DNA of 64,000 bases from Candidatus Saccharibacteria bacterium. Lineage in GTDB: Bacteria; Patescibacteriota; Saccharimonadia; Saccharimonadales; Saccharimonadaceae. Below are positions 24,661 to 59,140 of this stretch, piece after piece (the first letter of the stretch is position 1; every line of letters begins with the position of its first letter). The notes beneath the pieces are model-generated. The model saw only the letters and a list, made by a program, of their open reading frames with translations, had not been told where the DNA came from and did not search any database. The position numbers were made by a program, and so were the translations under genes. The DNA lies in assembly GCA_016789455.1 (NCBI GenBank), contig JAEUQU010000002.1, forward strand, positions 496,001 to 560,000, in the 5' to 3' direction.

Positions 24661-25073
24661 TGTTTTATGTTTCGTTACTAGTCTTTCCGCTGCTACTTGC
24701 CCTGAGCCGCCACAAGCAATCAGCCGCATTTGGCAAGTTCGCCATCGTCACCTGGATGCTCGGAGCTGCCGCCATTGACCTTGCCGGTGATTATGAGTAT
24801 CGGGTGCCGGTAGATCGCTTCGTCTTTCTGACACTCTGTATCGTGCTGTTGACGCTGGTGATATTTTTGGCGGCGGGGGCGCGCAAGCTCTCATTGAAGA
24901 TGCTCAAGCAAGTTGTACCCCGCGCGTATCTTGTGGCCGCTGCTCAGCTGGCGGCACTATTCATACCGCTCTGCCTCTACGTCGCCATCGTGCTCGGCCC
25001 GTCCAACCTCGACCTGCTGCTGCTCCTCTCGGTCGCCTTGCTGCTAGGCTGGGACGCGCTGCGCGACCGTTGA
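24657..25073 (+). CDS. Four-helix membrane protein of unknown function
   Basis: 138 residues, four hydrophobic segments, basic loops. Third gene of the 23381-25073 operon (its ATG overlaps the APH stop). No family recognised. Confidence 0.6.
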   Translation: MMFYVSLLVFPLLLALSRHKQSAAFGKFAIVTWMLGAAAIDLAGDYEYRVPVDRFVFLTLCIVLLTLVIFLAAGARKLSLKMLKQVVPRAYLVAAAQLAALFIPLCLYVAIVLGPSNLDLLLLLSVALLLGWDALRDR

Positions 25074-25124
25074 CGCACGGCCATTCTAGCGCCACAATAA
25101 AGACATTCATACGGAGGGTTGGCT

Positions 25125-25538
25125 ATGTTGGAATTTAGCGGCATCAATTATCTGGCGGTGGCAGCAGTCTGGCTGGTATACGTGGCAGTGGGGGCCTGGT
25201 GGTATTCGCCGGCCGGGTTTGCCAAGCAATGGAATAAGTACACCGGCATCAACATTTTGAAGATGCCCCAGGAAGAGGCTAGCCGGGCTATCGTTGCAGT
25301 TGCCATCTCTGCGGCCGTCCAGGCGTATACGCTGGCCATCGTCCTTAATTCCTTGCATGTCGCCACTATCATTGATGGACTGGCAGCCGGGCTGCTCATC
25401 TGGCTGGGGTTAGTGACGGCCACGACGGTCGGGGTGACTTTGTACTCGCGGCGGAGTTGGGATTTTTTGTGGCTGAACAGCGCGTATTTCCTGGTGGTCA
25501 TGTCAGTCGGGTCAGTGATTTTGGCCGCCTGGCAGTAA
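25125..25538 (+). CDS. DUF1761-like membrane protein
   Basis: 137 residues. VGAWWYSPAGFAKQWNKYTG near the N-terminus followed by three or four helices is characteristic of DUF1761 proteins (small membrane proteins, function unknown). GGAGGGTT ends 4 nt before the chosen ATG; a TTG 6 nt upstream is also in frame. Confidence 0.7.
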   Translation: MLEFSGINYLAVAAVWLVYVAVGAWWYSPAGFAKQWNKYTGINILKMPQEEASRAIVAVAISAAVQAYTLAIVLNSLHVATIIDGLAAGLLIWLGLVTATTVGVTLYSRRSWDFLWLNSAYFLVVMSVGSVILAAWQ

Positions 25539-25540
25539 CC

Positions 25541-25897
25541 TCATTTTCGCGATTGAGACCGTATCAATCGTAAAATGCTCACCGCTAGATAGTGAAAGAA
25601 TTGAGCAGCCACCAGTACTAGACTTAGAATGATGCTTGCGTAACCAGCCAGCCACATAACTAGCCTGTGCGGGGTAATTTGTATCGGTCCAGGTTCATGT
25701 CTCCAGCAAGTATCCGTAGGTCCGCCTGGATCTTCCACGCAAGGTGGAGGAGAAAATACGACCGTGTATGCCCAATTAATATAGTCACTGCCAACCGTAC
25801 CCAGCAACAGCAACCCTACACCAACCGCAAATAGACCGATAACGATTTTCCAGTACTTAGGCAACGTTTTCTTTTTTGACTTTTTTGCAGAGTTCAT
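25541..25897 (-). CDS. Two-helix membrane protein, AT-rich
   Basis: 118 residues: lysine-rich N-terminus (KKSKKKTLPKYWK), helix, an outside loop with two Cys (CVEDPGGPTDTC), second helix, basic end. Base composition is clearly lower in GC than the neighbours on the left, and it opens a stretch of lower-GC genes. No family recognised. Confidence 0.55.
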   Translation of the reverse strand: MNSAKKSKKKTLPKYWKIVIGLFAVGVGLLLLGTVGSDYINWAYTVVFSPPPCVEDPGGPTDTCWRHEPGPIQITPHRLVMWLAGYASIILSLVLVAAQFFHYLAVSILRLIRSQSRK

Positions 25898-25953
25898 TAC
25901 TGCTTGAAAGTATACCTAGCAATTCGAAATTAGTACATTTCATTTGGCAACTC

Positions 25954-25982
25954 TTGACAAAAATGAAAATCTGTGCTACATT
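25954..25982 (+). promoter_or_regulatory. Consensus promoter driving the structured RNA
   Basis: TTGACA (25954-25959), 17-bp spacer, TACATT (25977-25982). Predicted start of transcription near 25988. Confidence 0.75.
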
Positions 25983-25987
25983 GAAAG

Positions 25988-26581
25988 CAACAAACGATTT
26001 CTCTTGTAACCATTCGGTAAACAGTTACCCGCTAGTAGCTTAATAAGTTGCTATGCAGGACTAAAGCCGCGCGGTCGCTGCGAGAGCAGTACGCGCATCG
26101 GCAATAATCAAAACCTGGTGCACGGGGAGTGAGATAAGCTCTGACAGTGTGACGCCACCCAGTATTTAAGATAATCTCAAAGGTACTGCAGAGGGTGGTA
26201 GATGCGGATAGGACATACTTTATTTGCTTGACGGTCTAAGCGATTCCTGGGGAAACCTTGGGCAGCCTCTGGACGGGATGGCGGTAGGGTGTGGGTCGCC
26301 GCCTGCGGGTAACTGTTTGCCGGATACACCCGTCACGTCCTCTTGCCAAGCGCAAGCGTTCATCCGGCCCGAAACGAGCAAAAATATGCCTGGGCGCGTG
26401 AATCGTGAAAAGGACAGCTGATGGATCAAAAGAAAGCAGTACTGCGGTCGCGGTCCTGACGTTTGTAAAAACCCTGCGGGTGCGCCGCGGGCAAGAGGCG
26501 AGAAGTCTGCCTGAAAGACTTGGTACTTTAGCGCACAGAAACGTTTGTGAACACTCCTTCGTGCACGATGGAGTGTTTTCT
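25988..26581 (+). ncRNA. Large structured non-coding RNA of about 590 nt, class not identified
   Basis: No convincing protein is encoded here. The unit has a consensus promoter and ends in a hairpin terminator. Helices seen by eye: closing pair ACAAACG (25990-25996) with CGTTTGT (26542-26548); long-range 18-bp helix CGGTAAACAGTTACCCGC (26015-26032) with 26305-26322 (one G-U); hairpin 26033-26053; multi-step hairpin 26066-26102 capped by CTGC-GAGA-GCAG (GNRA loop); hairpin 26072-26091 in the 3' part (offset 400: 26472-26491); hairpin 26503-26521. RNase P, tmRNA and SRP signatures were sought and not found. A tag-like frame starts at 25987 (A-T-N-D... ending Y-P-L-V-A, double stop 26041-26046), but no tRNA-like end is present. 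Confidence 0.7.
26550..26581 (+). terminator. Terminator of the structured RNA
   Basis: AACACTCC (26550-26557) pairs with GGAGTGTT (26570-26577), followed by TTCT. It overlaps the 3' end of the convergent pseudogene. Confidence 0.65.
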
Positions 26582-27275
26582 ATTCCGCAGAGATATATTT
26601 TATGATTTCCGTGTCATCCATTTTGACGGCATCCGCATTGACATCAAGCATGTACACGAATTCTTTACCCCGCACTAAGTAAACTGTGTAGCGCGTAATA
26701 TCTGTTTGTGAAGGCAATCGCTTTTCAGTTTCATACCGCATCGCCGGCCTGCCATTCAATGTAAATGAATCCTTGTTGCGAATGTTGATCTTATAGCCAG
26801 TAGGCTTGCTAATTATCGCGCCGTCATCGCCGGTATGGCTTTTCTCAACTTCTTCAGTCATCTCTTTAAAAGTTTTTCTGTAGTTCAATATAGAAACGTA
26901 AATTTCTCTGGGCTTTTCTGGATTACGCACTACAGTTTGATAAGTAGTGTCTGCCAAGCTTGAATCTGGCTCAGGATTACTAATCGTGGCAGCCTCCCAT
27001 TCACTTGGTATCGCAAGTTGTAGCTGAGTTTCTGATATTTGTTCTTTTGTCCAGCCTTGCGGTAACGTCTAGCTGGTGGTGATATTTTTGAGACGATCCC
27101 TTGCTTCGATCACAGACGGAGAGCTTTGACCTGAGTCCACCGTCCGACCATCTTTTCCCGGCCACTTCACCACCGGGTAGCCGCCAGATGTACTGATGAA
27201 AAATAGCGCACCGTATGCTAAGCCGATAAGTATTCCTGGGATGATTGCAGTTATAACTATTTTTCTTTTAGACAT
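26580..27275 (-). pseudogene. Membrane-anchored protein gene interrupted by an in-frame TAG; paralogue of the 32403 gene
   Basis: Reading from ATG 27275, MSKRKIVITAIIPGILIG (membrane anchor) runs to ARDRLKNITTS, then TAG at 27069-27071, then the same frame continues TLPQGWTKEQIS...LAIPSEWEAA to a stop at 26580 (163 codons). The intact 228-residue paralogue at 32403-33089 has LPEGWRVKSV...LATPAEW at the equivalent place, showing the TAG falls inside one gene. Shared C-terminal core: HTGDDGAI...YKINIRNKDSFTLNGRPAMRY versus NTGDDGLV...YRMKILTKDTFTYDDKKAVRY. Nonsense pseudogene most likely; readthrough is possible. Confidence 0.7.
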
Positions 27276-27353
27276 ATGGCTCACTTTATCATAATAAAAA
27301 TGAGAAAGGAGTGCGCCGCAGCACACCCCATCCCCCGAACAGACGCCTTGGCA

Positions 27354-27613
27354 TCACTTCCTGGGCCGGTAGCCATCATTGCAGACCCAGCCCATGCCCA
27401 CCAGCTGCCGGGCGCGTTCATCATCGCGGTCGAGCCCTTCCAGCGTTCGCGGATCGATAATACCATTTCGGCGGCGTGGGCGCGCACGCGCTCTGGCTGC
27501 AGCACCACAAGCTGCCAGACATCGACGACCACAGGGCCAGGCAGCGCCTGCTGGTTGTCGTCAACGTTGCCCATGCAGTCGCGCAGAATTTCGTTGATCC
27601 GGAAGGTATCCAT
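27354..27613 (-). pseudogene. Small gene with an apparent frameshift
   Basis: A good Shine-Dalgarno (GAGGAG, 7 nt) precedes ATG 27613. The first 51 codons (MDTFRINEILRDCMGN...RVRAHAAEMV) look coding. After that the original frame becomes implausible, while another frame reads IIDPRTLEGLDRDDERARQL then VGMGWVCNDGYRPRK and stops at 27354. The total of 260 nt is not a multiple of three, consistent with one base gained or two lost near 27460. It could be a sequencing error. Product unknown, about 86 residues if repaired. Confidence 0.45.
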
Positions 27614-58964: not shown

Positions 58965-58993
58965 TTGACAGATGTGTCTTAATCACCTACAAT
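58965..58993 (+). promoter_or_regulatory. rplJ-rplL promoter
   Basis: TTGACA (58965-58970), 17-bp spacer, TACAAT (58988-58993). Confidence 0.85.
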
Positions 58994-59004
58994 GAACGCC
59001 AGTA

Positions 59005-59140
59005 TTTTGCCAGAGACAGTAGCAGCGGGCGTATGCCAGCTTAATATGCTACCGAGGTGATGCGTCCGGCCTTCGCAGGCCATCGCGATCTTCCGTCTTT
59101 GGTGAAAACCAGAGGCGTTTTGTTTTTACAAGCAGAACAC
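59005..59140 (+). promoter_or_regulatory. Ribosomal protein L10 leader (autoregulatory) with attenuator
   Basis: AGAGACAGTAGCAG ... TTAATATGCTACCGAGGTGATG matches the L10(L12)4-binding leader pattern. It is followed by a GGCC-TTCGCA-GGCC hairpin and CTTTGGT-GAAA-ACCAGAG then GTTTTGTTTTT, an attenuator-like terminator, before rplJ. Confidence 0.8.

Follow-up and report, generated by a model that had tools for sequence, protein, structure and literature searches.

A large structured RNA of Saccharibacteria, resembling OLE, ROOL and GOLLD in style but matching no catalogued family, as indicated by comparative sequence analysis

Only a small number of bacterial RNAs of around 600 nt are known to have a complex fold that is conserved, and for most of them the function has yet to be settled. 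Among the large ornate RNAs, ROOL and GOLLD are often associated with phages or prophages, although this is not a strict criterion. RNAs that make tertiary or quaternary contacts typically have a closed architecture, GNRA loops and long unpaired blocks that do not vary. In OLE (ornate, large, extremophilic), ROOL and GOLLD, it is through such contacts that RNA-only multimers form; those of ROOL and GOLLD are symmetric and described as nanocages, and HEARO measures 343 nt (PMC12286853).

The element described here lies in a 64,000-nt stretch of genomic DNA from a Candidatus Saccharibacteria bacterium (the window) and, as far as sequence comparison indicates, represents a genuine, uncatalogued family of large structured RNAs. 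The original prediction had likened it to OLE, ROOL and GOLLD; the likeness stood for size and style but does not extend to membership of these families, because no Rfam match was obtained. With OLE it shares a length of ~600 nt, a stand-alone fold in which helices are extensively nested, and invariant blocks of considerable length, but it belongs to another phylum, and the neighbouring genes, which differ at the three known loci, include none named as the OLE-associated membrane protein by general Pfam models. Like ROOL and GOLLD it is a large ornate RNA of patchy distribution; it differs from them in lacking recognised phage genes nearby and any phage or viral match. Judged by eye from their translations, the surrounding genes appear chromosomal; further along lie those for L10/L12 and thymidylate synthase. 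The raiA motif and HEARO are likewise structured bacterial RNAs with a defined fold, but the present RNA is longer than HEARO and no HNH-type gene was found adjacent to it. RNase P RNA and tmRNA also join their ends by pairing and comprise several domains. In the loose sense of a large structured ncRNA, the element exceeds 300 nt, has a covariation-supported fold and its own promoter and terminator, and contains no conserved ORF.

The search of positions 25900-26620 against Rfam 15 returned no hit at E<=10, neither to OLE, ROOL, GOLLD, HEARO or raiA nor to group I/II introns, RNase P, tmRNA or SRP. Neither homologue matched a known family; on their contigs only three sub-threshold matches to eukaryotic small RNAs were obtained (E 4.5-9.5), all outside the RNA. 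RNase P, tmRNA and SRP motifs had been reported as absent from the locus, and indeed no Rfam hit falls on the RNA. Since the host genome (G000) has separate genes for RNase P RNA (RF00010, G000:C2:916132-916503, 263 bits, sole match) and tmRNA (RF00023, G000:C2:910527-910935, 89.8 bits), the RNA is not a diverged form of either. Near these two genes lies a weak 6S-like match (G000:C2:918320-918473, 28.8 bits, below the cut-off). At gathering thresholds, Rfam detected only one tRNA and an L10 leader in the window, both elsewhere; the L10 ribosomal leader (58992-59132, plus strand) is barely over the cut-off and lies upstream of the L10/L12 genes. Searches of the open literature (bioRxiv as such and most subscription papers aside) turned up no description of the RNA.

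As had been claimed, the interval that harbours the RNA contains no credible protein gene: its ORFs reach at most 69 aa and are not conserved in the homologues. The proposed promoter is also present (Table 1), with 10 of 12 consensus matches and a TG ahead of the -10 box. By itself, such a match is near chance in this region (2 found vs 1.7 expected); both homologues carry TTGACA-17-TA(G/C)TAT plus the TG at the same position as in the window copy. At the 3′ end, the predicted terminator corresponds to a terminator-like stem whose U run lies within the 3′ arm. The consensus terminator scan did not call this stem, and an equivalent one follows the RNA 3′ end in both homologues.

Table 1. Positions of the RNA gene, its signals and its structural elements in the window
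Feature	Position	Strand	Remarks
Gene-free interval	25898-26579		between minus-strand ORFs 25541-25897 and 26580-26957
Structured non-coding RNA gene, ~590 nt	25990..26582	+	5′ end placed from the promoter, 3′ end from the terminator
Promoter	25954..25982	+	-35 TTGACA 25954-25959, 17-nt spacer, extended -10 TACATT 25977-25982
P1, 5′ strand	25990..26001	+	ACAAACGAUUUC; partner 26538-26548
P3 long-range helix, 5′ strand	26012..26032	+	partner 26305-26325
P4 hairpin	26033..26053	+	UAGUAGCUU-AAU-AAGUUGCUA, nearly invariant
Invariant block GCAGGACUAAAGCC	26055..26068	+	mostly unpaired in the consensus fold
P5	26066..26102	+	GCC/GGC base and GNRA-capped hairpin 26077-26090, GAGA loop
Invariant block AAUAAUCAAAA	26103..26113	+	unpaired in the consensus fold
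P6 hairpin	26120..26150	+	
P7	26154..26199	+	GCCACCC/GGGUGGU and AGUA/UACU stems, conserved one-sided GC(A/G)GA bulge
Central domain P8-P9-P10	26204..26302	+	
P8	26214-26228/26280-26293	+	part of central domain
P9	26232-26238/26270-26276	+	part of central domain
P10	26245-26251/26256-26262	+	GAAA loop; part of central domain
P3 long-range helix, 3′ strand	26305..26325	+	partner 26012-26032
3′ domain	26330..26424	+	P11/P12 (26330-26341 with 26411-26424) around P13 (26342-26356) and P14 (26357-26405)
P15 hairpin	26437..26458	+	assignment in the window copy uncertain
Extra hairpin CCUGCGG/CCGCGGG	26473..26491	+	window copy only
P16 hairpin region	26502..26529	+	
P1, 3′ strand	26538..26548	+	GAAACGUUUGU
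Terminator-like 12-bp stem	26549..26578	+	abuts convergent minus-strand gene 26580-26957

Two clear homologues, from two other genera, were detected by blastn among 394 genomes of the same family (E 5e-14 and 1e-11). The pattern scan of named genomes identifies them as JALRBE010000067.1 (Candidatus Saccharimonadia HM.17) and JACQGD010000039.1 (Candidatus Saccharibacteria, groundwater), both from Saccharibacteria MAGs, referred to below as G067 and G162 in no particular order. Overall, the homologues are 54-56% identical to the window copy and 72% identical to each other. Similarity among the three copies starts at the -35 box, and the conserved RNA begins with ACAAACG(A/U)UUUCUCU. Invariant in all copies are UAGUAGCUUAAU...GCAGGACUAAAGCC and then AAUAAUCAAAA; the similarity also takes in a central block around GGGGAA(A/G)CC...CAGCCUC and a conserved 3′ end (G)AAACGUUU, which the terminator-like stem follows.

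A check for covariation had been proposed with the original prediction; homologues exist and their paired positions covary. When the three RNAs were folded separately as single sequences, they gave the common order P1[P3[P4 ... P7 ... P8-P10] P11[P13 P14] P15 P16], which extends to the terminator stem despite little sequence similarity in the 3′ half. In the G067 fold, P7-P8 are paired otherwise, while the sequence of G067 also allows the consensus pairing. The topology of the 3′ domain is common to all three copies; its sequence is not. For a sequence-only MAFFT alignment, the consensus fold reached -120.7 kcal/mol vs -65.3 +/- 5.7 in 100 column shuffles that preserved gap pattern and local conservation (z = -9.8). 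In hand-matched helices, standard pairs occupy 258 of 270 cells, and compensatory change was observed in 33 of 90 pairs, a figure leaning towards structure because these pairs were picked for pairing. The central block, aligned by sequence, is 97.1% paired with both-sided change at 6 pairs (1 of 500 shuffles was as high), and its pairing drops to 37-52% when the partners are slid. The clearest case is P3, with CGGUAAACAGUUACC/GGUAACUGUUUGCCG in the window and AAGGUGCUGCC/GGCAGCACCUU in G162; this helix contains six compensatory pairs and P7 four, while P5 retains its loop over a covarying stem and P1 is nearly invariant. All of this covariation amounts to few events, as there are only three members and two of them are close (72% identity), and the helices were aligned partly by hand. 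Since the fold is kept in two distant relatives by matched base changes, we regard the RNA as real, and it is nearly certain in our judgement that it is a structured RNA under selection.

The window copy alone folds at -222.6 kcal/mol vs -198.5 +/- 5.5 for dinucleotide shuffles (z = -4.4), and its longest perfect inverted repeat measures 14 nt (shuffles: average 7.5, maximum 11). Three of the helices named in the original prediction recur with high pair probabilities: that of the two RNA ends (25990-25996/26542-26548, 0.91-1.0), which is part of P1, the long helix (26015-26032/26305-26322, 0.97-1.0), which continues to 26012/26325 (18-21 bp), and the GNRA hairpin GCTGC-GAGA-GCAGT (26077-26090, 0.94-0.99). 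The proposed GGGTGT/ACACCC pairing across the long helix, as pseudoknot or alternative fold, is not supported: its probability in the nested model is 0, the complementarity is absent from both homologues, and GGGTGT sits in P8 (0.97-0.99). Helix P2, between 5′ UUUUCUCU and the stretch after P11, gave shuffle p-values of 0.001 and 0.008 in the relatives; we do not claim it because it is poor in the window copy (p 0.36).

The distribution was analysed with covariance models of the 5′ block (R1) and the central block (R2). The three members are matched at E 1e-25 to 1e-28 (R1) and 1e-17 to 1e-23 (R2), values that are informative for specificity, because the model-building sequences are among the matches. 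Only these three were recovered from 394 (R1) and 379 (R2) family genomes. In 393 genomes of the class, R1 matched only the window copy, and in 342 genomes of the phylum it added four matches at E 0.02-0.04, about the chance expectation for this number of genomes, the best of them within a recombinase gene. Partial R2 matches (E 0.13 and above) were judged chance. All searches over more than 40 genomes used stricter filters, by which weak matches are lost. The genome-wide pattern scan returned both known homologues and three further matches without an R1 hit; two were inspected and both lie inside genes. Phages and plasmids gave no blastn match with the window copy and one homologue as queries, and phage and viral contig collections no supported match: five viral matches to one pattern were seen, none supported by R1. 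The synteny comparison of the window with the same-genus genome G001 gave no nucleotide match across 8 kb and thus no readable empty site. Because the RNA occurs in ~1% of family genomes (3/394), rare and scattered, it is an optional accessory gene and not a housekeeping RNA. Its scattered distribution may reflect horizontal transfer or repeated loss, which three members do not distinguish.

Several other explanations have to be weighed against a new stand-alone RNA. Long GC-rich sequences fold well, and the single-sequence z of the window copy is only -2.9 to -4.4, so a chance fold of hairpin-rich DNA was considered; it can hardly be credited, being contradicted by the compensatory changes and the alignment z in the homologues, and promoter and ends are conserved. 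That the RNA adjoins genes, and in the window and G067 ends against convergent ones, would suit a cis-regulatory leader or antisense RNA of a neighbouring gene. This is highly unlikely, however: the upstream gene is divergent at all three loci, the downstream gene is convergent or (G162) beyond the contig end, and the neighbours differ (an unnamed membrane protein in the window, an unnamed protein in G162, an HTH regulator and Maf in G067). The RNA thus forms a transcription unit of its own rather than a leader. PADLOC found no convincing defence system among the neighbour genes. An mRNA encoding a small protein between strongly structured flanks is very improbable, even though a frame reading approximately LFAR(R/C)(R/C)KRVLGKPGTASTGNGAGHGPPSIGSTL is open over the central block in the two relatives and 6 of their 8 differences fall at third positions (sequences read by eye). 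In the window a TGA at 26229-26231 stops this frame and a 1-nt insertion shifts it, the start codons are not in one frame, and the P9 differences between the relatives are compensatory base-pair swaps.

In favour of a highly diverged member of OLE, ROOL, GOLLD, HEARO or raiA, or of RNase P, tmRNA, SRP or 6S, size and style resemble OLE and ROOL, and the host yielded no SRP RNA with either bacterial SRP model. RF01854 found none in G000, G001, G008, G016, G035, G067 and G162, and RF00169 none in three of these seven, the host included. Four of the genomes missed by RF01854 belong to the family but yielded no copy of the present RNA, hence the miss comes from the lineage or from the models, and the SRP RNA of this lineage may be too diverged for the Rfam models. 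Together with the negative Rfam searches, the separate host genes for RNase P RNA and tmRNA and a presence of ~1%, which excludes a housekeeping role, this makes a known class improbable. A catalytic or selfish RNA, either a ribozyme or a mobile-element RNA moving between chromosomes, would account for the patchy presence in three genera and unrelated gene neighbourhoods, as well as for the complex fold with invariant unpaired blocks. We hold it to be unlikely, though not far-fetched: intron, ribozyme and mobile-element RNA models gave no hits, there is one copy per genome among the R1/R2 matches, and no transposase, reverse transcriptase or integrase was seen among the scanned neighbours. The RNA is not an intron, because promoter and terminator belong to the conserved unit.

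Comparison of the three loci establishes the family together with its fold and promoter, and shows that it is independent of the genes around it. On balance we think it rather probable that the locus holds a non-coding RNA gene that stands alone, founds a new family and is accessory to its hosts, and whose product acts in trans as a folded particle. A sigma-70-type promoter would drive the ~590-nt transcript, the 5′ and 3′ ends of which would pair and so close the molecule, with the terminator hairpin after the RNA. Of the two domains of the RNA, the 5′ one would hang on the long P3 helix and comprise hairpins P4-P7 together with the P8-P10 arm, and the 3′ one would consist of P11-P14. Acting in trans, the particle might serve as an RNA scaffold for proteins or assemble from RNA alone as OLE, ROOL and GOLLD do; the two invariant unpaired blocks and the GNRA loops would be putative tertiary-contact or binding surfaces. 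No protein partner was detected. At most, the RNA would work like OLE, ROOL and GOLLD, whose covariance models do not match it. More tentatively, and with some doubt, it could be a large bacterial RNA machine of a new class, with no relation to any class known so far and limited to a few Saccharibacteria; such a machine might be a ribozyme or a particle that assembles itself from RNA alone.

In genomes as small as those of Saccharibacteria, carrying ~600 bp of non-coding DNA comes at a real cost. A new unrelated family would offer a separate starting point for studying the role of large ornate RNAs and whether assembly from RNA alone has arisen repeatedly, and the R1 and R2 blocks make it searchable in metagenomes. 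Two further observations concern the surrounding DNA. The G+C content is 0.48-0.51 around the RNA (25000-27500) vs 0.57-0.64 a few kb to either side. The gene converging on the RNA (26580-27326, minus strand) consists of two same-frame ORFs (27069-27326 and 26580-26957) separated by an in-frame stop near 27069, which marks either a pseudogene or a sequence error.
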